From Cryoendolithus antarcticus (lineage: Eukaryota; Ascomycota; Dothideomycetes; Cladosporiales; Cladosporiaceae), in contig NAJO01000017.1 of assembly GCA_002077065.1 (NCBI GenBank), positions 558,001 through 622,000 of the forward strand: a stretch of 64,000 bases of DNA, written 5' to 3'. The translations under genes and the position numbers were made by a program. Under the pieces are notes generated by a model. It ran no database searches. It saw only the letters and a program-made list of their open reading frames with translations, and had not been told where the DNA came from. Shown here in pieces: positions 3,043 through 64,000 of this stretch; the stretch's first letter is position 1; each line of letters starts with the position of its first letter.

Positions 3043-4404
3043 ATGTACGCAGCCTACCATGGCGCCATTCTGGCGTTAGCTATCTCAACCTCCGCCGCTC
3101 CGATTAATAAACGCCAGTTCAGTGGACTCAGCTCTCTTGGCGGCTCTTCAAGCAGTGGCCTCGGTGGGCTACCATCACTAAGCGGCGCGAGCTCTGGACT
3201 CGGCTCATTTGGCGGCTCTTCGGGACTCGGCGGACTCTCTTCATTGGGCGGCGGTTCCAGCTCTGGTCTCGGTGGCTTGTCGTCTCTCGGCGGACTCTCC
3301 TCGCTCGGGAGTAGCTCTTCTTCAGGCGGTCTGGGTGGCTTGTCGTCACTTGGAGGGTTGTCTTCCCTGAGAGGCAGCTCCGGATCATCAAGCGGCCTCG
3401 GGTCGTTGGGTGGACTGTCTGGTCTCGGTGGCAGCTCTGGCTCCTCAAGTGGCCTCGGCTCGCTCGGTGGCCTTGGTGGCCTTGGTGGCTCATCGGGAGG
3501 TAGCTCTCTGGGAGGGCTGGGAGGGCTATCAGGACTTGGTGGCTCAACTGGTAGCAGCGGCACCGGATCCACTGCTTCCGGCTCGGGCAGTAGCAATACC
3601 ACCTCTGGCACTGGCAGCTCCACAGGCTCCGGTACCGGGTCTGGCACCGGCTCCTTCGGCCTCGGCGGTCTGGGTGGTCTTGGAGGGTTTGGCGGTGGCA
3701 GTACTGGCAGTACCACAGGCTCTAGCACCGGCTCCTCTGGCCTCGGTGGGCTTGGTGGCTTTGGCGGATTCGGCGGATTCGGCGGCGGTGGTAGCTCAAC
3801 CCAGTCCGATGTCACTAATGGCGTCTGCGGTGACGTGACCCTCATCTTCGCTCGCGGCACCACTGAATCCGGCAACATGGGCACCGTCATTGGCCCACCT
3901 CTCGCAGCAGCTCTGAAAGCCCTCTACCCCTCTGTCGCAGTCCAGGGCGTCGACTACCCTGCTGACGCCGCTGGCAACGCCAATCTCGGCGGCTCTGGCG
4001 GACCGACGATGGTCGCAGACGCGCAGAAAGCTCTGTCTGATTGCCCGAACACCAAGATCGTTCTGTCGGGCTACTCGCAAGGTGCGATGGTGGTGCACAA
4101 CGCGCTCGGCTCCTTCGATGGGTCGAAGGTCGCTGCTGTGGTCGTGTTCGGGGACCCATTGAACGGGAGCGCGTTCACTGGGGTGGATGACGCGAAGGCT
4201 GTTGAAGTCTGCGCTGATAGCGATGGGCTCTGCGACAGAGCGGGCAGTGATCTTCCGGTTTCTGGGAGTCACATCAGCTACACGCCGTCGGCTGAGGCGG
4301 CTGCGAAGGCGGTACAGGCCATCATTGGAGGACCTGGCACGGGGTCTGCGGCGCCGGCGACGTCGAGTGTGCTTGAGCTGGACTCAACGCATGGCGCAAC
4401 CTAG
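3043..4404 (+). CDS. Secreted cutinase with a long Gly/Ser/Leu-rich repeat region
   Basis: A secreted serine esterase of the cutinase family (CE5), which hydrolyses cutin and related polyesters outside the cell. It is a single 453-aa exon. Residues 1-19 form a signal peptide, followed by a dibasic site (INKR at 22-25). Residues 27-255 are low complexity, made of variants of GLGGLSSLGGSSGSS and later GTGSGTGS and GGFGGFGG. The catalytic domain begins near C262: the cutinase block DVTLIFARGTTESGNMG, nucleophile Ser in GYSQG (about 342-346), Asp in CADSDGLC (about 389-396) and His in GSHISY (about 408). The domain itself is normal in length; the roughly 230-residue repeat arm is extra, since cutinases are usually 200-230 aa in all. 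The arm could be a wall or surface linker. The antisense strand has a long Pro-rich frame, which is a composition shadow. Confidence 0.92.
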   Translation: MYAAYHGAILALAISTSAAPINKRQFSGLSSLGGSSSSGLGGLPSLSGASSGLGSFGGSSGLGGLSSLGGGSSSGLGGLSSLGGLSSLGSSSSSGGLGGLSSLGGLSSLRGSSGSSSGLGSLGGLSGLGGSSGSSSGLGSLGGLGGLGGSSGGSSLGGLGGLSGLGGSTGSSGTGSTASGSGSSNTTSGTGSSTGSGTGSGTGSFGLGGLGGLGGFGGGSTGSTTGSSTGSSGLGGLGGFGGFGGFGGGGSSTQSDVTNGVCGDVTLIFARGTTESGNMGTVIGPPLAAALKALYPSVAVQGVDYPADAAGNANLGGSGGPTMVADAQKALSDCPNTKIVLSGYSQGAMVVHNALGSFDGSKVAAVVVFGDPLNGSAFTGVDDAKAVEVCADSDGLCDRAGSDLPVSGSHISYTPSAEAAAKAVQAIIGGPGTGSAAPATSSVLELDSTHGAT

Positions 4405-47113: not shown

Positions 47114-47397
47114 GATACAATCTCTTCTCAGATGCGCAGGGAAGTCGGTGTTCAGTGGGCGAGCATTCCTGTGCGCGGTGGAATAGCACTGCTCAATAAT
47201 GGACGGATGGCGTTTTGGGCCGTGGTACGACGATGCCTAGGTTGACATGTGGTGCTTGCGGACGAGGCACGAACACTACTGCTTTTAGCGCGGCGCTGGG
47301 GCGGGATAGCATACTACACGACCGGCAAATGAGACACACGAGACATGAAATTCGTTCAGGCAGCGTCTGGTACATTTTAATGGACGTCGTATAGTCA

Positions 47398-49092
47398 TTA
47401 ATCGGAGATCATAAACTGTGACAGTCAGCACAATCCCCTCAGACCTCTGCCACATACGACTACTCACCCAGCTCCCTCCCAACATAATGACCAACCAAAT
47501 CGCAGTCAGCGCCCCAGCCCCACCCTTGTCCCTCATCGTAATCGCCGCCGGCGGCTTGATCTGCCCCACTCCCATCCCAGCATTCGGATCCCCCTGACTC
47601 GTCCCTCCAGTCGTATTACTCACCGGCCCAGCGACGCTCTGAATAAGATTCGACTGTATGACTTCCAGCGCGCTCATCTGCTGACCTACGCCATACTCGC
47701 CATCCCACTCCATCCACCATCGACTTGGACAAGTAACGCCGTCGGATCCGCCGGAGCAGGCTGCGGCAGCTGCTGTCGCGGAGGAGCGAAGCAAGGGTAG
47801 AATTGTGGGCGCTGTCCAGGGTGCGAGTTTGGTTGTCGCGGCGTACCAGCGACTGAGATAGGCTTTGAAGCTGTGTTGGTCGGTGTTGCATATGCCTTTA
47901 CTAGGCGCGAAATTGATTTCGCAGGAGACTTCTGGGAGGTGGCTTAGTAGGGGAATGGGTCAATTTGTTGAGCTTACGTGGGACTGCTCCATGCTCGTAA
48001 ACATTCTGGTGCGGATGGCAGACGTACCGTACATGATCGTCTGGTTCCTGAAGAACGCCATGTTGGCTCCTAACAAGCCGGAGACTCTGGTTCCCCACTT
48101 GGCTTGCACGTCGCCAGTCGTCTGAAGAATCGCGTCAGTTTGGCACGAGAAGGGTGCATCTGACAGGTTTTGCATACCTGGTTCCACATCGTCGCCGCGG
48201 TGAGCAGCATGATACCGGCGTTATATGTCCACTGCGTTTGATCGACTTGCGAACAATTCAGCTTGTCGGCCTCACTGCCGTCGAAGACTTGGTAGGCTTC
48301 GTTGATAAGTCCGATCCTGGACATCTGGAAGTTGAGTCAGTGAACCTTACTTTAACTTGATTGCACCAAATCGCAGCGACAGACCCAGTCCCAAGACCTT
48401 TCCGCCCAATCGAAGTACGTCTGATTCTGCGTGTACGCCCCTAGTCGCGCTGCGATCGCAGCGAAGGGGCCATTCGCGATCGTGTTCTTGTAGTTGTAGC
48501 CAGCATTGATGGATACGGCCTGCCACCTCAGTCCACCTCCACACGTCGAGGTGTCCCATCTCGATGCTTGCCGGTTGAATACGGCCTGCACGAGGGCTAG
48601 CCATTGAGGCTCGTTCGGCGGTGGATTCGGGAACTTCAGCTCGGCTGCACTCATTGCACTCATCGCCCAGAAGGACTGATCGTCATTCCCTAGATTGCTC
48701 GTCTGATTTCGAGGCTCGTAATCCACACCTTCGCCTACCTGGAAGAGCATGGCTTGCATGACATTGTCGTTGTACGTCGTGTCACCGGTGTAGTACCAGT
48801 AGTCTATCAGCGAGCCGAACATGGCGCCAGCTTCCCACCAGTAGTAAGGAGGCTTAGGAAGAAGGCCAGGAACCTGGCCGGTCTCATTGCCGGAATAATA
48901 AGACATCATGCCATGTGCGATTGTACTTGCCGCCGAGCGAATGGAGGCTTGGAGGAGATCAGTCAAGTACATGGCACAAGCTCTCGGGCGTCACTTAACT
49001 GGGTTATCGAGGTCAAGCTCAATGGCATTCGTATTGCCGCTGAGGAGGAAGAGCGCAGCCCCGCTCGCGAGAAGCCGTGGCATTGAAAACAT
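47398..49092 (-). CDS. GH76 mannan endo-1,6-alpha-mannosidase (DCW1/DFG5 family), odd first splice site
   Basis: GPI-type cell-wall glycosidase/transglycosidase linking GPI proteins to glucan. Proposed minus exons: 49092-48999, 48947-48385, 48324-48178, 48121-48028, 47931-47468 and 47415-47398, 459 aa. Exon 1 encodes a signal peptide ([20 protein letters not shown]) and AIELDLDNP. Then [40 protein letters not shown], the catalytic Asp pair in [15 protein letters not shown], and [20 protein letters not shown] follow. The C-terminus is hydrophobic ([15 protein letters not shown], then FMISD), fitting a GPI signal. The first intron is irregular: in the phase needed, the donor reads ttaagt instead of gtaagt. 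The alternatives are a start at the ATG at 48972 without signal peptide, a recent donor mutation, or a sequence error. The other introns are GT-AG, though one donor is a weak gtctgt. Convergent with the double-UBC gene. Confidence 0.8.
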
Positions 49093-51237: not shown

Positions 51238-52555
51238 GTCGTCGGTGGTGTTGCCAATCTTGTGCTCCGGAGGAAGACTCGTCCGTCTTTGCGGGAATGG
51301 TCTCGTGATTGTTTGCCTGAGAAAAGAGCTTCCAAAGGTCTTCAACAGGCGTTCAGGTATAACGAAGAGCCGGGCAGCAGTCACGAAGCAGGAGGTGAGT
51401 AGGAAACAAGAAGAATACTTGACCCGTAACAACACTCTACCGATCTCTAGCTCTGATACTTTATTATTGCCTGACTCGTTCGGCAATACGTCTCTCATGA
51501 AGCATTACAGTGGATCCAATCATTTCGGTCAGGTGGAAGAAAGTTGACCTACACAGCCTCGCCCGCTGCTGCCCCCACACAAACACGATCTCTTGGATCC
51601 GATCGCCCGCAAACAGCAAGGGCAGGCGCGTCGCGGAGAAAGATACCCCGGGTGCCGACGCTAGGCCTTCTTCCGGTTTATTGCTGACATGTGATAGTGC
51701 GATCTATCAATTGTTGATTAGCAGATCGTCCACCACCTCATTCCATTCTGGGCGGTTGATCACAGCGGGATAACCGTCAACCAACGCAGTCGTATTCGCT
51801 GCTGGCCATGACAGCTGAGTGCTCGAGAATCTGTACAACATGAGGCTGCTTATTACGACTCACGAGAAGAACGCCTCGAACAGTGCCGACGGCCGACCTC
51901 TGTTGAAGCGGCCGTTCTAGTTGCGCATACCACACCGCAGGCATATCGCGCCAGGTGCTGCACTAGACCTATCACTTGCAGTCCTCGCCCGAGCCTCATC
52001 GTGTCTGGACTCCCCCTCGCGTGGAACGCGTTCACTCCAAGCGCCGACTGACAGCGCCCGCCGTGTTTCGGCCAAGGCGTTTCAGATCTGCCAATTGGTC
52101 GCAGGTGCAGAACAATAGCACGTCAAGTCAAGCTGCACCACAAGAAAGCTTTCACACAGGCCATGGGGTGAAGCTGAATCGTCGCATCGCGGTGTCAGCA
52201 TGGCACTGGCGCGTGTTGCTTGCGACGGCCGGGAAACCCCTCGACCCTCCTGGTGACTGGCCATGGCGCTCGTCTCACTGACTGCAGGCGTACAGAAGGT
52301 GAAAGCGAGGCGACCTTCCTTTCACCGTCTCGTCAGCATCGCTATCGTGTCTCTTTGTTTATTGTCTTTGTTCCTATTGTCTTTCGCTCTTCCATTTCAC
52401 GGTCTCAAGCTCTCGCTTCCAGTCGCAGCACCGCTAATCGACATACACTCGCTCTAAACACTGATATTGTATCATACTAATCGTGCAGGCACGATCGCCA
52501 CTCGCTACTGCCGTAATAGCGCTTCGATAGCGCTTCGCCCCTCATTACGACCATC
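51238..52555. other. Intergenic region between divergent genes
   Basis: About 1.3 kb with the promoters of the unknown minus-strand gene and the subtilase. The last 200 bp are CT-rich (ctctttgtttattgtctttg), a likely subtilase leader. No gene is supported. Confidence 0.4.
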
Positions 52556-54190
52556 ATGAAGTTATCAGCATACTTGACCATATTGGCGGCTTACGCATGC
52601 ACGCAAGCCGTAGCAGAGACCTCGCATCAGTCCGGCGGTGCAGAACACATCGTCATCATCGACAAGAACCATCCGACTCCACCTCAAGTAGCAGAGGTTC
52701 TTCAACGTCTCGAGCTCAATGAGTCCCACCCCGATGTCCGACACATCTTCAATAACAGCGCTTTCATCGGCTTCGCAGCAAGCATGAAGTCCCACTGCCT
52801 GGACCTCCTCGCCAACATGTCGGACATCTCCATGGTCGAAGAAGCAGCGACAGTAACCCACTCGCTAGCTCTGCCAGTTCGGCATGAAAGGCGCGTGGTC
52901 ACCACTGCTAAGACTTGGGACACTCGCTCCTCAGCCCCATGGGGCCTGCAGCGCATTTCTACTGCTTCCTTCGCGGCCGGCGACCCAAAGGCACTGGACT
53001 ACACTTACTCATTCTCTAATGGCGGGCTCGGCAAGGGCGCAGACATATACATCATCGACACAGGTCTCTATACTGAGCATGTCGTCTTCGGGAATCGCGC
53101 ATCCCAACCGTGGTCATACGATAACAATATGACTGTTGTGGATGGCCACGGTACGCATGTGGCTGGCACAGCTGGAGGCGAGACTCTGGGCGTCGCCTCA
53201 AATGCGAACGTCTTCGGTGTTCGCGCACTAAGCGGCACAGGATCTGGCTGGTCCTCCAACGTCGTTGCAGGCATAGACTGGGTGATCCAGCAACACGACA
53301 AGCGTAAGTCTTACTTCGGGCACACCGGCTCCGTGCTCAGCATGTCCCTTGCCTCAGGCGGCACAGTGACAGCGATCGACACAGCCGTCTCGGCAGCCAT
53401 ATCAGCAGGTGTTCACGCTGTCGTAGCAGCCGGCAATGCAGGCGAGGATGCTTGCTCTACCTCGCCATCGCTCAGTGGCGGGACTCACGGCGGCGCGATC
53501 ACAGTCGGCTCCGTCGGTATCACGGGCGAGCGTAGTTCCTTCAGCAACTACGGCGATTGCGTTGATGTCTACGCGCCGGGTGAAGACATCATTTCGGCCT
53601 GGCTCGGTGCGCCGGATATGGTCAACGTCTTGTCTGGTACAAGCATGGCTACACCACATGTCACTGGGATCGTAGCTTATGCTATGGCGAATACGACACT
53701 TGCCAACGACCCGGCGAAGATGAAGGAGTGGATCCGTATGCAAGGGCTGCCCAGAGCTGATGGCACTGTCTTGGCGAACAATGGGGTGCTTGGTGGAAGC
53801 ACCAGCGGGCTGATTGGCGTGAAGCGGAGAGGCATTGGGGAGGGTTTCAACAGCCTTGTGGCGTGGCTGCAGAGACTTGGTAAGCACGGTCATCACCACC
53901 ATCGTCGAAGGGGTGCAGAGGAGGCGACTAACAGTGTGGCTTCCAGACTCTTCGACGACATCGTAACATCTGCCGATCACGACATTCTAGAAATGACTCT
54001 CCTGAAGCGCGGCGCTGCTGACGGACTGGCAAAGCTGGCGACCTGGTTCCTCAATCTCCTTCACGGCGGGAGGAAGAGGCACAGCCGCTCGATGCAGGTC
54101 TCTAGGCCCGCGCTCGTGGGACCCGACACCGGCATGCTGTACTCACTCGATGTGACTGGTACCGAGCCTACGCTCACTAAGCGCGAGTGA
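52556..54190 (+). CDS. Secreted subtilisin-like serine protease (S8) with peptide-repeat C-terminal extension
   Basis: Single exon, 544 aa. The signal peptide is at 1-20 (MKLSAYLTILAAYACTQAVA). The inhibitor pro-domain (I9) runs to about 110 and begins EHIVIIDKNHPTPPQVAEVL. The protease domain has all catalytic residues: Asp in IYIIDTGLYTEHV, His in DGHGTHVAGTAGG, the oxyanion Asn in VVAAGNAGEDACS, and Ser in LSGTSMATPHVTG. It resembles proteinase K-type fungal alkaline proteases. Those normally end soon after the Ser region, but here about 150 residues follow. They contain two similar amphipathic segments, GFNSLVAWLQRLGKHGHHHH and DGLAKLATWFLNLLHGGRKR, each preceded by a Lys-Arg pair and followed by a basic cluster. 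A third copy lies out of frame just past the stop. The tail could be a pro-peptide or wall-binding part cut off by a Kex2-like protease. Confidence 0.92.
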   Translation: MKLSAYLTILAAYACTQAVAETSHQSGGAEHIVIIDKNHPTPPQVAEVLQRLELNESHPDVRHIFNNSAFIGFAASMKSHCLDLLANMSDISMVEEAATVTHSLALPVRHERRVVTTAKTWDTRSSAPWGLQRISTASFAAGDPKALDYTYSFSNGGLGKGADIYIIDTGLYTEHVVFGNRASQPWSYDNNMTVVDGHGTHVAGTAGGETLGVASNANVFGVRALSGTGSGWSSNVVAGIDWVIQQHDKRKSYFGHTGSVLSMSLASGGTVTAIDTAVSAAISAGVHAVVAAGNAGEDACSTSPSLSGGTHGGAITVGSVGITGERSSFSNYGDCVDVYAPGEDIISAWLGAPDMVNVLSGTSMATPHVTGIVAYAMANTTLANDPAKMKEWIRMQGLPRADGTVLANNGVLGGSTSGLIGVKRRGIGEGFNSLVAWLQRLGKHGHHHHRRRGAEEATNSVASRLFDDIVTSADHDILEMTLLKRGAADGLAKLATWFLNLLHGGRKRHSRSMQVSRPALVGPDTGMLYSLDVTGTEPTLTKRE

Positions 54191-54261: not shown

Positions 54262-55026
54262 GAAAGTCAGACGTTGCGGATGGTAACAATGATTCAATGC
54301 TCCCAGTGAGAGGTGCGAGTCACAACGCACGGGCTTTAGAATCGCACTGGGAAGTAGGAGTGCGGCATCGCCAGGCAGAGCCTGCTCGCGGTCAGGAGTG
54401 TAGCACATCAGACATATGAGTGTTGGCAAGATCCGCACAGGCACAGGGTAGGAGCGATGCCTACAGAATCGCGATGCATAGCCGATCCATACATGTCGAA
54501 ATGAACCTCTGATCGCGGACACTTCCATAGATGCGATGACTGTGCTCTGACATACTACCTAGCAGTCCCTGTGCTGATATCAGAGCCTCCGCAAACGGCA
54601 TGGCGCTCTTGCGGTGTTAGCGAGAGAGCATCGCTGTAGCACTCGATGTCTGCTATCGTCTCTCATTGACATGACGTCCAGTGGATCGGTCGACGTGGGG
54701 TGAGTGATAGACCCATATGAGTCTCTGCTGTAGTCACCGAGATGTCGACTGCACTCGATAGCGTCTGCATTGTTCCTGCATTCGGTCGTCAATGATAATG
54801 TCTTTGGTGGAGGCGCGTCAACAAAGAGGAGGCCTTGGCGCGTTGCTGACTTCCCTTCGGAGAGCGACTGCGCCACGGGAGATCGAGTCCAGTGTACCTT
54901 CATCCCAGCGGTACAATGGCGGCGTTCGCGGGTTGTTTATCTTGAAGTCTGTTCATGTACTAAAGCTTTATGTACTAAAGCTCATGCATTACACTCCTGG
55001 TCAACCCAAGTCTCCCCTAGCCAGCC
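54262..55026. other. Intergenic region
   Basis: About 0.76 kb between the subtilase locus and the dipeptidyl aminopeptidase gene. A short repeated motif, tgtactaaagct, occurs twice in tandem at about 54956-54981, close to the start of the next gene. No gene is supported. Confidence 0.4.
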
Positions 55027-57741
55027 ATGGAGACGCAGTACCAGGTCCTCTTCGAGCAGTCACAACCACTAACTCAGCATGACGAAGAGACCGAGCGACG
55101 ACGATCCGCGTCGTCTGCATCAACGATGTCGATGGTACTAGAGCACGTGTCCGATAAGGCCGCACGCGAAGCACTCTACCGCGATCACCCTGCCCCCGAG
55201 CATGAGCTGGACATGGAGGATCAATTGGCTTGGAAGCGGAGTGTCAAGCCAGCAGACAAGAAGGCAAGACGGGTGTTCTATATCCTCATTGCCATTGGCA
55301 TCGTGGGTTGGCTGGCTGCATTGGGCCTGTTTATTGGGCAGGAACGACATGTCAGCCGTGCTAGCCGACCACACGATCCGCATGCCACGAATACGGTGGG
55401 CAGTGGGAAGAAAGTCACGTTACAGCAGGTGCTAGAGGGGAAGTGGTACGCTCGAAGCCACGCAATTCGGTGGATCGCTGGGCCTGCCGGAGAGGACGGT
55501 CTACTACTTGAGCGAGGAGGGCAAGAGGGAAGGGACTACCTTGTCGTTGAAGACGTGCGGTACCGAGAACAGAACATTGAGGTGCAGAAGGAACACAGCA
55601 GCACGCTGATGAAAGCTGCGACTTTCAAGGTCGGCGAGGATACTGTGTATCCCTCAGAGACTTGGCCGAGCGCGGATCACAAGAAAGTGCTCGTGCAGAG
55701 CGACTATGAGAAGTTGTATCGACACAGTAGCTTTGGACGGTACTGGTTCTTCGATGTCGAGTCTCAAAGAGGAGAGCCGCTGGACCCGGCGAACATACAC
55801 GGGCGCGTGCAGAGCGCGAGCTGGTCGCCGACAGGAGACGCTGTCGTTTTCACGAGGGACAACAATATGTACATCCGACACTTGGACAGCGATGTGATGC
55901 AGGCCATTACTACGGACGGAGGACCGAATCTGTTCTACGGCGTGCCTGACTGGGTGTACGAGGAGGAGGTTTTCGCAGGATCGAGTGTGACCTGGTGGGC
56001 TGGCGACGGGAAGTATGTCGCGTTCCTGCGGACGGATGAGAGCAAAGTACCTGTCTTCCCGGTGCAGTACTTCTTCTCGAGGCCTTCGGGTAAGAAGCCA
56101 GCTCCCGGCGAGGAGAAGTACCCGGAGACAAGCGAGATCAAGTATCCGAAGGCTGGCGCACCGATGAGCGTGGTCACTTTGCAGATCTACGATGTGGAAA
56201 AGGGCGAGGTCTTCGAGGTGCCCATTGATGGCGACTTCGAAGATGACAACCGTCTCATCACTGAAGTTTTGTGGGCTGGCAAGACTGGGAAGCTAATTGT
56301 GCGCTCGACCAATCGTGACAGTGACATACTCAAGCTCATCCTGATCGACGCTGTCAAGCGCTCAGGCAAGATAGTGCGCGAGCGTGATGTGCAGAAGCTT
56401 GACGGTGGCTGGATGGAGGTCTCCGAGACTACCACGTTCATCCCAAACAACGCCAATTCTGAGTCTCGCAAAGACTACGCTCGATCACAGGACGGCTACA
56501 TTGATACAGTCATCCACAATGGCTTCGATCATCTTGCCTACTTCAGTCCCCTGGACAATCCCGAGCCAAGAATGCTCACTGAAGGCAACTGGGAAGTCGT
56601 CAAGGCCCCTTCCGGTGTCGACCTGAAGAACAACCTTGTCTACTTCATCGCCACCAAGGCTGACAGCATGGAACGCCATGTTTACAGCGTCGACATCAAC
56701 GCCGGTCCCTCAAGCATCAAAGACGTCACTGACCAGAACGAAATCGGCTACTACGGCGCCAGCTTCTCAGACGGCGCAGGTTTCATGCTGCTGTCGTATC
56801 AAGGCCCAAAGATACCTTGGCAGAGAGTGAAGGCAACTCCAGGGAATTACCTTGATCTGACAGACATCACGATCGAGGAGAACAAAGCTCTCGCGACCCT
56901 CGCCCAAGAGACCGAGCTCCCAATCGAGATCTACAAGACCTACAACGTCGAAGGCTTCGATCTCAACGTTGTCGAGCGTCGTCCCCCGCACTTCGACGAC
57001 AGCGGCAAGAAGAAATACCCAGTCCTCTTCTACCTCTACAACGGGCCCGGCTTCCAAGAAGTCGACCGCCGCTTCACAGTAAACTTCCAGTCCTACGTTG
57101 CCAGCACACTAGGTTACATCGTCGTCACTGTCGATGGCCGCGGCACGGGCTTCCTTGGCCGCGAACACCGCTGCATCATTCGAGGCAACATGGGCTACTG
57201 GGAAGCGCACGACCAGATAGCCGTTGCGAAGATGTTCAAGGGCATGAATTACGTTGATCCGGAGAAACTGGCGATCTGGGGATGGTCGTACGGAGGCTTC
57301 ATGACGCTCAAGACGCTTGAGACTGATGCAGGGGAGACGTTCAAGTATGGTATGGCTGTTGCTCCGGTGACGGACTGGAGATTTTACGACTCGGTGTATA
57401 CGGAGCGGTACATGCATACGCCGCAGCATAACCCCGAGGGCTACGACAATGCGACGATATCCAACATGACTGCACTGGGCCAGAATGCGAAGTTCCTGGT
57501 CATGCACGGGTATAGCGACGACAATGTGCACTTCCAGAATACGCTACAGTTGCTGGATCGACTGGATCAGGCAAATGTGCGAAATTACGATGTGCATGTC
57601 TTTCCTGACAGCGATCACAGTATCTATTTCCACAACGCTAATGCCGTGGTTTACGAGAAGCTGAGCGACTGGTTGGTGAACGCTTTCAACGGCGAGTGGT
57701 TAAGGACGGAGAACCCGACGCCAATGGCACTTGGTGGGTGA
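55027..57741 (+). CDS. Vacuolar/Golgi type dipeptidyl aminopeptidase (DapB/Ste13/Dap2 family, S9B)
   Basis: Type II membrane serine peptidase that removes X-Pro and X-Ala dipeptides from N-termini; in yeast, Ste13 trims Glu-Ala spacers of alpha-factor after Kex2. Single exon, 904 aa. A cytosolic tail comes first, then one membrane span at about 85-105 (FYILIAIGIVGWLAALGLFI), then a lumenal DPP-IV beta-propeller (SWSPTGDAVVFTRDNNMYIR, FYGVPDWVYEEEVFAGSSVT). The propeller includes the Glu-Glu pair that binds the free N-terminus. The hydrolase domain follows: nucleophile Ser in IWGWSYGGFMTLKTLE, Asp in MHGYSDDNVHFQNT, His in FPDSDHSIYFHN. All catalytic parts are intact. It lies between the subtilase with Lys-Arg-flanked repeats and the repeat precursor whose spacers fit its specificity. 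Confidence 0.95.
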   Translation: METQYQVLFEQSQPLTQHDEETERRRSASSASTMSMVLEHVSDKAAREALYRDHPAPEHELDMEDQLAWKRSVKPADKKARRVFYILIAIGIVGWLAALGLFIGQERHVSRASRPHDPHATNTVGSGKKVTLQQVLEGKWYARSHAIRWIAGPAGEDGLLLERGGQEGRDYLVVEDVRYREQNIEVQKEHSSTLMKAATFKVGEDTVYPSETWPSADHKKVLVQSDYEKLYRHSSFGRYWFFDVESQRGEPLDPANIHGRVQSASWSPTGDAVVFTRDNNMYIRHLDSDVMQAITTDGGPNLFYGVPDWVYEEEVFAGSSVTWWAGDGKYVAFLRTDESKVPVFPVQYFFSRPSGKKPAPGEEKYPETSEIKYPKAGAPMSVVTLQIYDVEKGEVFEVPIDGDFEDDNRLITEVLWAGKTGKLIVRSTNRDSDILKLILIDAVKRSGKIVRERDVQKLDGGWMEVSETTTFIPNNANSESRKDYARSQDGYIDTVIHNGFDHLAYFSPLDNPEPRMLTEGNWEVVKAPSGVDLKNNLVYFIATKADSMERHVYSVDINAGPSSIKDVTDQNEIGYYGASFSDGAGFMLLSYQGPKIPWQRVKATPGNYLDLTDITIEENKALATLAQETELPIEIYKTYNVEGFDLNVVERRPPHFDDSGKKKYPVLFYLYNGPGFQEVDRRFTVNFQSYVASTLGYIVVTVDGRGTGFLGREHRCIIRGNMGYWEAHDQIAVAKMFKGMNYVDPEKLAIWGWSYGGFMTLKTLETDAGETFKYGMAVAPVTDWRFYDSVYTERYMHTPQHNPEGYDNATISNMTALGQNAKFLVMHGYSDDNVHFQNTLQLLDRLDQANVRNYDVHVFPDSDHSIYFHNANAVVYEKLSDWLVNAFNGEWLRTENPTPMALGG

Positions 57742-59286: not shown

Positions 59287-60366
59287 CTATGGAATCTCGC
59301 TCCAGATTCGCTGCCCTTCCTCCGGCGGCGCCAGATAATCCAGTGGCGGCTCCTCGGGCACCTGCCTGACTCTCGCCCACTCCCGCACCTCATCGAAGTT
59401 CCGGCATCTATGCTTCGTATTGAAGTCTACGAAAGCCTCCGGATACTGCTTATCGGGCGGCTGGTACCAGACTTGGCCGAGCAGACCGATATCGACGGTG
59501 CACATAAGCTGTTGGCGGACGATGTCGAGGCAATGCGCTTGGAGTGTATTAGTAGTGAGGAGACGAATGGGTAGTAAGAAGACGTACTGACGTGCTTCTG
59601 CACGATGTGAGGTTGGTTCTTGAAGGCGCCTTTGCCGAGGGCTTGGTAGTGCTCGAAGTTGTAGTATAGAGATTGGCGGAGGAGATTCTGCGAAAGAAAT
59701 CAGCACTTCACACCTCTCTTGTGAGAACGCATCAGCAGCGTACTAGGCAGTGCAAATGATGCAGTCCTTCCACATTCGCGGGGTAGCCGCCTCCGAACTC
59801 AGCGCTGATCCGGACTTTGTCTCGACTCATACCAGCTGCTTCGGCCTGAGCCTCGGGTACCACTGCTGCTCGATCTACAGCCCATGTCAGTATCTGCGGG
59901 GCCTTGTAACGTCAGGCACCGTACAGTTTACTCCCAACGCCTCCCACGCTGCATCCGTCTTCGGCCCAGCAAGTCCCCGATACACGTTCTCTTTGAGGAA
60001 GGATCCATTGTATAGCTGGTCGTGATACTTAATCTCCAAATCATGCAGCAAGGGCGACGGCTGCGCTACTTGGCTTATGCACGACGGCTGTGTTGTAAGT
60101 GCGATCACTGCAGTCAAGACCGCGACAGTACTAAGTGTCGCACCAGCCCATAGCAACTTCTGTGCAGTTGTCCAGGATTGCCTTCGCTGCTGACAATGGC
60201 ACCCTGTGCTGAGCTCCTCGACCGAACGTCCGTTCGATAATTTCTCCGATGCCTGGTCGAACGACTCCGAGGAGTCGCCCGCGTTCAGTGGGTCATACAA
60301 CGATCTTGACTCCCGAGGTAGTGGTATCGAGAAGATCGCTTTGACCCTTTTCGAACTGGACTGCAT
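59287..60366 (-). CDS. UstYa-family (DUF3328) protein, putative peptide oxidase/cyclase
   Basis: UstYa-family proteins are membrane-anchored enzymes or partners that oxidatively cyclise Tyr-containing peptides in fungal RiPP (dikaritin) pathways such as ustiloxin. Minus exons: 60366-59925, 59874-59744, 59687-59588 and 59537-59287, 307 aa; introns 50, 56 and 50 nt. A Ser-rich cytosolic N-terminus is followed by one membrane span at about 70-92 (LLWAGATLSTVAVLTAVIAL). Then come YHDQLYNGSFLKENVYRG, AAWEALGVNY across intron 1, and EFGGGYPANVEGLHHLHC with the first HxxHC motif. The second HxxHC, KHVTHCLDIVRQQLMCTVDI, is made by splicing exon 3 to exon 4 at a ccaag acceptor. The C-terminus has VDFNTKHRCRNFDEVREWA, typical of the family. 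Both motifs are intact, so the product should be active. It is divergent from the precursor gene at 61756. Confidence 0.9.
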
Positions 60367-61755: not shown

Positions 61756-62902
61756 ATGAAGGCTAGCTTCTCGGTCATCGCTCTCGCCCTTGGCATTGGC
61801 GCACTTGCGTCTCCAGTCCCAGCAGCCGAGCCACAGGGCTATGGAAATGTATGTGGACACTTGACCCGCTCCCCTGACTAGCGGGGAACTGACGTTCGGC
61901 CCAGTATGGCAACGTGAGTCCGCACCATTCATCGAAGTCCAGGAAATACAGGCCATCTGACGTGAGATCGGATCGCAACAGTATGGCAATTGTGAGTACA
62001 TCCTGGCGGGACCAGCGACTCGAGAACCGAGACTAAATTGTGGCGAATAGACGGAAGATACGGCAGCTGTGAGTGGTCCAGACTCTCGTTCTTACATGCA
62101 GCGATGCTGAGTGTCCACCGGCAGATGGCACCTACCCGAAGCTAGCCACCCGAGAGGCAGCGGCTGCTCCAGCACCAGGCTACGGCAATGTAAGTCCAGC
62201 ACTCCCTCGCGATGCTGTTTGTGCACCAGTTGACCATGCACCGTGTAGTATGGAAATGTAAGGCCCTAATTGCAGCAGGTATCGAGCATCGCTAATGGAT
62301 CGCGTGATGTGAACAGTATGGAAATTGTAAGAGACTCGTTGCGATGCTCACTCTATTCGCTCGACTAGACGCATAATGCTGACGAAAGGACAGATGGGAA
62401 ATACGGGACATGTAAGCTGGATGCCGATGAATCCTCTACGTGGGGCATTCCAGGCCTGGATGCTGATAGCCTACGGGACAGACCGCAACTATCCCAAGAA
62501 CGCCGTTCGTGAGGCTGCACCGAATCCAGAGGCCGAAGCGGATGCCGACCTGGCGGCTCTAGAGGACCTCGTCTCCGCTATCAAGTCCAAGCGAGCCAAC
62601 TATGGTGAGTGATCGCACACCAATAAAGACCATAGGACACTGACGGTTGACTTAGGCAACTACGGTCAGCGTTACGCCATGTAGTGCAGGTGTGCAACTG
62701 CTGAATCTTCGTGTCCAGGCAATTACGGCGCATACGGCGCATACGGCAAATATGGGAGGCAGGTCATCCCTCGACCATCGAGGATGTAGCAGGCGTGCAT
62801 CGTACTGATCTAGAGTCCAGCTACGGATCGTACCCTCGCGAGGCCGAGCCTGAGGCTGCGCCAGAGGCTGCGCCTGAGGCGGTACCAGCACCAGCCGAGT
62901 AG
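61756..62902 (+). CDS. Secreted Tyr-Gly-x repeat peptide precursor built from micro-exons (putative RiPP precursor)
   Basis: Model with 12 exons: 61756-61848, 61905-61913, 61982-61991, 62051-62068, 62125-62189, 62249-62257, 62317-62326, 62394-62411, 62470-62604, 62656-62664, 62719-62758 and 62821-62902; 165 aa. Exon 1 gives a signal peptide (MKASFSVIALALGIGALASP) and the first YGN. Exons 2, 3, 6 and 7 each encode one YGN (9 or 10 nt). Exons 4 and 8 encode YGRYGS and YGKYGT (18 nt). Exon 5 encodes YGTYPKLATREAAAAPAPGY and a further YGN start. Exon 9 holds NYPKNAVREAAPNPEAEADA, an acidic helix and KSKR. The last exons give GAYGAYGKYG, then YGSYPREAEPEAAPEAAP. Introns 1-10 are GT-AG; the last appears to be GC-AG. 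Cores ending YP(K/R), followed by R-E-A spacers of X-Ala and X-Pro dipeptides, suggest Kex2-like cutting and DPP-IV trimming. No database check was possible; the peptide function is inference. Confidence 0.8.
61838..62830 (+). repeat. Tandem Tyr-Gly-x coding repeats with a duplicated 9-10-18 nt exon cassette
   Basis: The codons TAT/TAC GGN AAN recur at each exon end or micro-exon. Cassette A is 61905-61913, 61982-61991 and 62051-62068; cassette B is 62249-62257, 62317-62326 and 62394-62411. Sizes (9, 10, 18 nt) and phases are identical between cassettes, and each is followed by a longer exon with YPK...REA. This implies segmental duplication of a four-exon block. The intron sequences have diverged more than the exons. 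Confidence 0.75.
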
Positions 62903-63446
62903 ACGACCGCTTCTGAGCAGGGCAGGCCATTGTGGCATTGCAGTCCGGTAGTGATGGCCGGGGCAGAAGAGCAACAGAGGCTTGTGTCCAGGCATGTCAG
63001 CTCCGTAGTGACGATTTCGAGGATGCAGACGTAGACGATAATGACTATCTTGTTGCGCATCTGTTCCAAACTTCCAAAGTCTCAACCCGCGGCGCGTGTG
63101 CCATGAAACCGGACAGACGATATTTCGATGGAGCTCGGTCCAATAACCACTACGGAGCTTCTCATGTGCTCTTCTCCTCAGCCTCATCCACGCGCCTCTG
63201 TCGCACATATAATGAGATGCGCAAGCGGATATTGACGACAAAGTGACATTGAGAGACGCATGCATTGAGATACGCGATCACTGGGGCGTGGAGAAGGTCG
63301 TGAGCTCATTTAAGGAAGGTGAATGTGCGGTGGTGGGTGGGCGAGGTTCGTTAGCGTCGGCTAGACCAAGCCAATCGTATCGGTTCCATGTTCTGCGCTC
63401 TGAGGATTTACTCGTTGTGCAGAGAATCCCTCTACACGCACATAAT
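62903..63446. other. Intergenic region
   Basis: About 540 bp between the precursor stop and the RNA exonuclease start. No gene is supported; short frames overlap the precursor in antisense. Confidence 0.4.
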
Positions 63447-64000
63447 ATGGCGAAACGCAAGAGAGAGCATAGGGAGGAGCGCACGCACAGTGGCGTGGCT
63501 CAGACACTTGCGCGAGTCCGCGACTCCCAGCAATCGCCAGCCGAGTCGTCGTCCCCAATGGACCAAGATGTGGAACAAAATAGCAAAGCAGACGATGGCG
63601 GCGACTGGGAGGTCGCTGGCTCCAAACGGCAAAAGAGACTGAAGAAAGAGCCGACTAAGGAGAAGGGCAACTATCCCTCTATCACCCATTCGTCGCAGGC
63701 CAGACTGCAGAGTATCGTCAAAATCAGTGACCTGCAAAACTTGATCTTGTACACGCTTGCCGACGGCACTGGGCCACAATGGTGTTCTGTTAGACACCAC
63801 GCGAATGTGAGGCGAGTGGTGGCGCTTATGGTACCGGGTCTTGAAGCTGGCATGTTTGATGGCTCGATAGCGCTTGAGCTAGAGGCAGACGCGATGGTCG
63901 GCGAGGACTCAACTTCCTCGAATGGCCTTCACCTCCCTGTCAGCGGTGGCGATGGCGATCAGCTGGGGAAGGACATGTCAGGTGTGACAACAGACCTACC
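63447..64000 (+). CDS. RNA exonuclease, Rex1/Rnh70-like, N-terminal part (runs off window)
   Basis: The frame starts at the ATG at 63447 (MAKRKREHREERTHSGVAQT) and is open to the window end, giving 184 codons. The N-terminus is highly basic with Lys/Arg clusters (SKRQKRLKKEPTKEK), fitting a nuclear signal. The conserved block SITHSSQARLQSIVKISDLQ then NLILYTLADGTGPQWCSVRH and VRRVVALMVPGLEAGMFDGS matches the region before the exonuclease domain in fungal Rex1-type (DEDD family) RNA 3'-exonucleases, which trim 5S rRNA and tRNA precursors. The catalytic domain itself lies outside the window. The first 80 residues are likely disordered. Confidence 0.8.
   Translation, partial: MAKRKREHREERTHSGVAQTLARVRDSQQSPAESSSPMDQDVEQNSKADDGGDWEVAGSKRQKRLKKEPTKEKGNYPSITHSSQARLQSIVKISDLQNLILYTLADGTGPQWCSVRHHANVRRVVALMVPGLEAGMFDGSIALELEADAMVGEDSTSSNGLHLPVSGGDGDQLGKDMSGVTTDL

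Follow-up and report, generated by a model that had tools for sequence, protein, structure and literature searches.

Among described systems, the gene analyzed here stands closest to the KEX2-processed repeat proteins (KEPs) and to the precursors of dikaritins such as ustiloxin, phomopsin, asperipin-2a, and victorin. KEPs often lie near DUF3328 genes (22% of 7878; PMC7329392), and runs of X-Ala or X-Pro dipeptides after a Kex2 site have been described in them as a Ste13 signature (PMC6339444); a KEP produced in Pichia was found to lose such dipeptides (PMC9769878). In the newer definition of dikaritins, the DUF3328/UstYa enzyme defines the class, and a tyrosinase and a methyltransferase are not required (PMC12048977). 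The strings "intron," "exon," and "splic" are absent from the main text of PMC7329392, as are "intron" and "exon" from the available text of PMC6339444; in other fungal repeat proteins, the introns reported number one or two, are placed close to the signal sequence or ahead of the first repeat, and do not define micro-exons (PMC8786786, PMC11333574), and the accessible part of PMC10182648 holds nothing on split repeats. As far as the accessible text of the open-access literature goes, we found no matching case of a micro-exon-bearing precursor of a fungal RiPP or KEP.

The locus described here lies in a 64,000-nucleotide stretch of Cryoendolithus antarcticus DNA (the window) and holds what we read as a known kind of precursor in a new gene architecture. 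Its exon-like stretches between conserved splice signals, the frame that they form, the layout of repeats and spacers, and the neighboring genes are all read directly from the DNA. Like KEPs (PMC6339444, PMC7329392), the predicted protein shows repeated near-identical motifs, here three Tyr-Gly cores with 18 YG units, together with a KR site, stretches of X-Ala/X-Pro, Tyr-containing repeats, and a nearby DUF3328 gene, and its N-terminus looks signal-like by eye; it differs from them in having one dibasic site out of four and in having its repeats split over micro-exons. KEP repeats are bounded by KR, RR, or KK, and in this protein KR precedes core 3 only, the other sites being TR, VR, and PR, so we call the precursor KEP-like and not a KEP. 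As in dikaritin loci, a repeated precursor with Tyr-containing cores adjoins a UstYa/DUF3328 gene with two HxxHC motifs, although we see one UstYa, no tyrosinase or methyltransferase nearby, YGx cores of ~25 residues, and a different gene architecture. Ascomycete alpha-pheromone precursors offer a partial parallel, with X-Ala/X-Pro dipeptides for Ste13 behind a Kex2-type site, but in the present protein these dipeptides come after single Arg, the present cores lack Trp and Cys, unlike the PCW cores described in the available text of PMC6339444, and the gene has a UstYa neighbor and micro-exons.

In architecture, the gene recalls the MEGs of Schistosoma, which encode secreted proteins on many tiny, mostly frame-neutral exons (PMC10526429). 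Several of its predicted internal exons are well under 30 nt and most of these are frame-neutral, a likeness of architecture only and not a claim of homology; MEGs are animal genes with introns of 100 to almost 5000 bp, compared with 51-70 nt here, and the part of PMC10526429 available to us describes no design of repeated cores and cleavage sites for them. In filamentous fungi, a microexon is found in Xlr2 of Trichoderma virens, but that is one regulatory microexon in a transcription factor, against seven predicted in a small secreted precursor; the same 2024 paper regards functional microexons as undescribed in filamentous fungi before its own case and cites earlier, limited reports of fungal microexons (PMC11121469).

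The precursor gene (61756-62902, + strand) is predicted to consist of 12 exons with 161 codons plus a stop (486 nt coding), the exons measuring, in order, 93, 9, 10, 18, 65, 9, 10, 18, 123, 9, 40, and 82 nt, so that the seven internal micro-exons run 9, 10, 18, 9, 10, 18, and 9 nt. An earlier note on this DNA had listed exons of 9, 9, 9, 10, 10, 18, and 18 nt, all of which are present and joined in one frame. The single frame that it proposed also holds, at 162 codons including the stop instead of 165, and the introns are as short as it had said, with an upper bound of 70 nt in place of 68 (51-70 nt). The parts of the gene, with identities to its homeologous copy, are as follows.

61756-61848, + strand: exon 1, 93 nt; signal-peptide-like N-terminus, SPVPAAEPQ, and the first Tyr-Gly-Asn unit; phase 0 end; 90/93 identical in the homeolog
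61905-61913, + strand: micro-exon 2, 9 nt (YGN), phase 0-0; 9/9 identical in the homeolog
61982-61991, + strand: micro-exon 3, 10 nt (YGN plus the initial base of the Tyr codon that follows), phase 0-1; 9/10 in the homeolog
62051-62068, + strand: micro-exon 4, 18 nt, two Tyr-Gly units, phase 1-1; 17/18 in the homeolog
62125-62189, + strand: exon 5, 65 nt; closes core 1 with the single Arg of LATR, continues as the EA-AA-AP-AP spacer, and opens core 2
62249-62257, + strand: micro-exon 6, 9 nt (YGN), phase 0-0; 8/9 in the homeolog
62317-62326, + strand: micro-exon 7, 10 nt, phase 0-1; 10/10 in the homeolog
62394-62411, + strand: micro-exon 8, 18 nt, two Tyr-Gly units, phase 1-1; four differences in the homeolog, all silent
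62482-62604, + strand: exon 9, 123 nt; closes core 2 with the single Arg of NAVR, continues through an X-Ala/X-Pro spacer and the ADLAALEDLVSAIKS segment to the dibasic KR, and opens core 3
62656-62664, + strand: micro-exon 10, 9 nt, phase 1-1; 9/9 in the homeolog
62665-62718, + strand: intron 10, donor GTCAGC, in-frame TAG; 53/54 bases identical between homeologs
62719-62758, + strand: exon 11, 40 nt; carries core-3 Tyr-Gly units, of which the homeolog has one (9 nt) fewer
62759-62820, + strand: intron 11, GC-AG here (GCAGGT), GT-AG in the homeolog (GTAAGT)
62821-62902, + strand: exon 12, 82 nt; closes core 3 with SYPR and adds the acidic EAEPEAAP tail and the stop

The 11 introns sum to 661 nt, against 486 nt of coding sequence. 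GT-AG boundaries are found in 10 of the 11, intron 11 being GC-AG in the window copy, and a YTRAN branch-site-like motif lies 11-21 nt before every acceptor in both copies (distances of 8-30 nt were scanned); its distance agrees between the copies in 10 of the 11, with a 2-nt shift in intron 7. None of the three frames of the unspliced DNA is open (20, 16, and 12 stops). Five of the seven predicted micro-exons are symmetric, while skipping of micro-exon 3 or 7 alone breaks the frame, and the exon phases leave 128 ways of linking exon 1 to exon 12 in frame. A different donor for intron 11, GTAGCA, was set aside, as it would leave an intron of ~35 nt; it is apparently the one used in the public gene model of Rachicladosporium sp. 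CCFEE 5018, and we prefer the GC donor because both the homeolog's GTAAGT and the WKAS of an Oleoguttula relative (below) fall there. If intron 10 were retained, its in-frame TAG would shorten the protein, which would then end in GQRYAM (homeolog, GQRYAV).

Such a series of exons is in excess over shuffled sequence. In-frame Tyr-Gly micro-exons of 9, 10, or 18 nt with consensus acceptor and donor flanks number six in the gene, compared with a mean of 0.0006 in 5000 dinucleotide shuffles (one such unit in 3 of the 5000 and more than one in none), and neither strand of window positions 1-61700 holds any. Irrespective of content, 10 exon-like stretches of 6-21 nt occur in the gene, five of them model exons, against a shuffle mean of 1.9, a count reached in 1 of 3000 shuffles; their density is 10.3 per kb in the gene and 1.3 per kb in window positions 1-61700. 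Across the genome, the 18-nt exon pattern was found at four places, all in the precursor gene and its homeolog (reversed control, 0), and the 9-nt pattern at eight places, four of which are in these two genes (control, 1). Two other loci with the 9-nt pattern (L016 and L021) were read and rejected as Tyr-Gly genes, and a script scan over 3 kb found at most six YG per frame and no second micro-exon-like unit at any of the four loci outside the two genes (these two, L022, and L023).

The genome (46.97 Mb in 149 contigs) holds many loci in pairs, and the diverged pairs of kinase, UstYa, DPPIV, and Kex2 matches are as expected of a duplicated or hybrid genome. When the gene region was searched against it, only the gene itself and a homeolog matched (C65:362917-364161, - strand), the latter being 83% identical and aligning along the entire gene. 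The homeolog encodes 158 residues and keeps the frame and all 11 introns. Exons are identical at 436/477 bases (91%) and introns at 509/661 (77%), and the terminal intron bases differ at only 1 of 44 positions (p 7e-5). Codon differences comprise 26 silent and 11 replacement changes (dN 0.038, dS 0.290, dN/dS ~0.13 across the spliced frame) and fall on codon positions as 8, 5, and 28 (chi-square p 1e-5); within the micro-exons, 5 of the 7 differences are silent and 6 of the 7 are at third positions (p 0.007). The one exonic indel is 9 nt long, a single YGx unit, and the intronic indels are 2 and 1 nt. Taken together, this pattern supports purifying selection on the predicted spliced frame. Intron divergence is patchy, at ~10% in introns 1-4 and ~34% in introns 5-9 and 11, and intron 10 differs at 1 of 54 bases compared with 151 of 607 in the remaining introns, an unevenness that points to gene conversion or to a function of intron 10.

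The closest named relative of the precursor, P0001, belongs to Rachicladosporium sp. CCFEE 5018, as does P0018, the closest named relative of the neighboring UstYa; neither is identical to its counterpart in the window. The gene model of P0001 already contains micro-exons 2, 3, 4, 6, and 10, but it omits exon 7 and then continues through intron 8 in another frame; the annotation of this strain is described as ab initio (Augustus, GeneMark, EVM), and the accessible text names no RNA-seq (PMC5502844). In Oleoguttula sp. CCFEE 5521, P0002 is 65% identical over 73%, and its model reads through some introns, matching introns 7 (its end), 10, and 11 in place and, marginally, exon 3 with intron 3. 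Local alignment scores were 104 and 116 downstream of exon 9 (shuffle maxima 42 and 43) and 45 and 44 after exon 6 (34 and 32); around exon 3, the score was 44 against a shuffle maximum of 41 in copy B of the gene, while against copy A the best match for this stretch (42 versus 41) falls at an unrelated place. By back-translation, STENVS in P0002 gives AG|TACGGARAAY|GTNAGY, which is the 10-nt exon 3 with both splice signals (at a marginal score), TIDGKYGT gives the acceptor before exon 8, and IWKAS (WKAS = TGG AAR GCN AGY) matches the GC donor at intron 11, which thus seems to be shared with Oleoguttula. The read-through suggests that the splice sites are common to another genus at some places, so that the conservation in relatives looked for in the earlier note is borne out in part across genera, as far as protein models can tell.

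Other proteins share parts of the design. P0003 and P0016 have a YGTYPK ... PEPEAEADADLAAL stretch in common with the precursor and P0017 its first part; beyond the exons, the stretches of P0003 and P0016 gave no alignment to the precursor introns above shuffles, and scores beyond the shuffles were seen only along exon sequence (41 versus 38 and 29 versus 27). P0004, P0005, P0008, and P0013 are Tyr-Gly repeat proteins with a clean KR + X-Ala/X-Pro + GYGN design, and their repeats may be free of introns; they may share ancestry with the precursor or only its composition, and a search of the C. antarcticus genome with P0004, run without a positive control, gave no match.

A decaying gene, or one whose micro-exons are mostly skipped so that the exon chain is a relic, could account for the GC donor of intron 11, the in-frame stop within intron 10, and the loss of exon 7 from the public CCFEE 5018 model. 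Such a relic would hardly be expected to keep dN/dS at ~0.13, with micro-exon changes that are mostly silent and at third positions, and the frame is broken by the loss of exon 3 or 7 alone, while the GC donor itself is seemingly shared with Oleoguttula; we hold this explanation to be very improbable.

The origin of the introns was also considered. Introner-like elements have placed several introns in one gene in Dothideomycetes, the class of Rachicladosporium (PMC4457414), but they were rejected as a source here. The 55 pairs of precursor introns lack consistent similarity (the best pair, 3/6, gave z of 2.1, 3.2, and 3.2), so the introns do not repeat each other, and in the genome the gene region has no match apart from itself and its homeolog. 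Exons 2-4 and exons 6-8 have the same lengths (9-10-18) and the same phases (0-0, 0-1, and 1-1), as if a four-intron module had been duplicated (introns 1-4 to introns 5-8), but between matched introns no similarity is consistent (the best match, 4/8, has z 3.0 in copy A and -0.2 in copy B), and any such duplication would be an old one.

The predicted protein begins MKASFSVIALALGIGALASPVPAAEPQ, of which MKASFSVIALALGIGALA reads by eye as a signal-like N-terminus, and continues with the three Tyr-Gly cores. The last residues are YGTYPKLATR in core 1 and YRNYPKNAVR in core 2; core 3 begins after KR and finishes with YGSYPR ahead of the acidic EAEPEAAP tail. The 161 residues include 22 Tyr, 22 Gly, no Cys, and no Trp, and 9 of the 18 YG units are encoded entirely or for the most part by the seven predicted micro-exons. 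One putative cleavage site is dibasic (KR, before core 3) and the other three are single Arg (TR, VR, PR). Spacers of EA-AA-AP-AP ahead of core 2 and EA-AP-NP-EA-EA-DA after NAVR both follow a single Arg, and the residues after the sole KR site are AN.

We surveyed the spacers at 38 candidate Arg sites in 19 proteins (17 found by search and the two precursor copies). A Tyr-Gly core was reached within 45 residues at 24 of the 38 sites; spacer length was even at 21 of these 24, and all dipeptides were X-Ala or X-Pro at 11 of them, counts that are not independent because the site rule required Glu/Asp plus Ala/Pro after a single Arg and because orthologs and nested sites are included. The EA-AA-AP-AP of the precursor copies is also Ala-rich in the shifted register (3/4), so the cleanest support for the dipeptide register comes from P0004, P0005, P0008, and P0013. 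This register, and the KR that precedes the same core type in those four proteins, argues against a full-length, uncut, Tyr/Gly-rich protein of the wall or matrix, a reading that would suit the three single-Arg sites among four and the abundance of Tyr and Gly without Cys; we find it improbable.

Upstream of the precursor lie three genes that may bear on its processing.

59287-60366, - strand: UstYa/DUF3328 oxidase gene, 307 aa, 4 exons (60366-59925, 59874-59744, 59687-59588, 59537-59287); PF11807 176 bits (cut-off 25)
55021-57738, + strand: membrane dipeptidyl peptidase (open frame), S9/DPPIV family; PF00930 361 bits, PF00326 195 bits; relatives in the PDB
52520-54187, + strand: subtilase (open frame), proteinase K-like (PDB relatives), signal-like start; PF00082 105 bits

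The UstYa and dipeptidyl-peptidase neighbors, and the presence of one dibasic Kex2 site among four, go beyond what the earlier note had described. The UstYa gene starts at 60366, 1.4 kb from the precursor and in divergent orientation, and its predicted product belongs to the family that defines the dikaritin class, with both HxxHC motifs (HHLHC at 186, HVTHC at 223) and, by eye, one membrane span. Its first intron was picked from 18 in-frame options, guided by known UstYa sequences, and the resulting junction GVNYRAAVVP is identical in the public proteins P0018 and P0019. The homeolog of the gene is intact (dN 0.040, dS 0.554). Because the predicted precursor adjoins a gene of this family, a tyrosine-linked product is likely. 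The genome search found nine UstYa matches at about six loci in 47 Mb, and rough, post hoc arithmetic puts the probability of one lying within 2.5 kb by chance at ~6 in 10,000. As relatives of this UstYa are very common (519 at E<=1e-30), it may act in another pathway. The homeolog has the same neighbors, as follows from the genome-wide pairing, and the locus tags of the CCFEE 5018 genes (B0A51_07261 and B0A51_06508) do not show linkage. In Oleoguttula, the tags argue against linkage: the precursor (LTR95_006018) is on a contig of 17.4 kb and the closest UstYa protein (LTR95_003046) on another of 26.6 kb, which means either that this genus has lost the linkage or that the assembly is interrupted.

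The dipeptidyl peptidase has a Ste13/DapB-like N-terminal anchor (by eye), ends 4.0 kb upstream of the precursor, has a homeolog, and is one of four DPPIV_N loci found in the genome; of the second DPPIV_N pair (L030 and L031), L030 has a different, signal-like start. The neighboring peptidase may be the ordinary vacuolar DapB. The subtilase, with a homeolog at C65:371574-373226, has no P-domain match, and its role in the precursor locus is doubtful; Kex2-type convertases with a P-domain are encoded on contigs C79 and C97. None of the 16 tyrosinase matches in the genome lies on the window contig (C59) or the homeolog contig (C65), and no methyltransferase or transporter was found among 20 neighboring ORFs scanned with Pfam, so that the older five-gene definition of dikaritins, with a tyrosinase and a methyltransferase in the cluster, does not describe this locus. 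Elsewhere in the area, we noted an 815-residue open frame a short way downstream of the precursor (63216-64000, continuing to L011:6660) with no Pfam match at E 0.001, a glycoside hydrolase family 76 gene (47288-48990, two fragments, - strand), and a 57-nt tandem repeat of 2.1 copies (3373-3489) that is Gly/Ser-rich in one frame (by eye).

These neighbors bear on whether the Tyr-Gly peptides stay linear, as surface-coating or pheromone-like products of a real micro-exon gene with Kex2/Ste13-type processing, next to which the UstYa gene would be incidental. X-Ala/X-Pro ladders are typical of alpha-pheromone precursors (PMC6339444), the UstYa linkage is not seen in Oleoguttula, and the two contigs lack a tyrosinase. 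Linear peptides nevertheless fit poorly with a UstYa gene within 1.4 kb, one of so few such loci in the genome, and with the association of Tyr-containing repeats with DUF3328 neighbors reported for KEPs (65.6% versus 38.2%; PMC7329392), and we treat them as a possibility that we would not expect to prove right.

With modest confidence, we propose that the gene encodes a secreted, KEP-like precursor of a dikaritin-type RiPP, with repeats split by micro-exons, that is processed and then modified by UstYa. The parts of this proposal differ in strength: we are highly confident in the micro-exon gene model; given that model, processing of the precursor is likely; and given both, modification by UstYa is fairly likely. 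To judge from conservation, all 11 short introns would be spliced out, adding 9 of the 18 Tyr-Gly units to the mRNA from exons of 9-18 nt, and the signal-like N-terminus would direct the product to secretion. Cleavage at KR would be the work of a Kex2-type protease, and Kex2 or another protease might cut the three single-Arg sites, where the case is weak. A Ste13-like dipeptidyl peptidase, possibly the product of the neighboring gene, would trim X-Ala/X-Pro up to the Tyr-Gly cores, as the spacer register suggests, and the neighboring UstYa oxidase, judged by family and proximity, would join the tyrosines or otherwise oxidize the cores. The view in the earlier note of a peptide precursor with repeated cores on tripeptide-sized micro-exons is strengthened by the homeolog with its 11 introns, purifying selection, the partial match across genera, the X-Ala/X-Pro spacers, and the UstYa neighbor. 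A bolder version, in which frame-neutral YGx micro-exons are chosen during splicing to program a family of UstYa-cross-linked cores with varied repeat number, appears unlikely to us.

The proposed KEP-like precursor joins micro-exon splicing and fungal ribosomal natural products, two subjects that we did not find together in the open-access literature, as far as its accessible text goes. Genome mining for repeat precursors depends on correct gene models, and since P0001 loses an exon and the frame and P0002 reads through introns, similar genes may escape such screens. Exons of 9 nt between introns of 51-70 nt offer a sharp test of the minimum exon of the fungal spliceosome, the gene is a test case for how introns settle in successive repeat units, and splicing could in principle alter the repeat number of the product.
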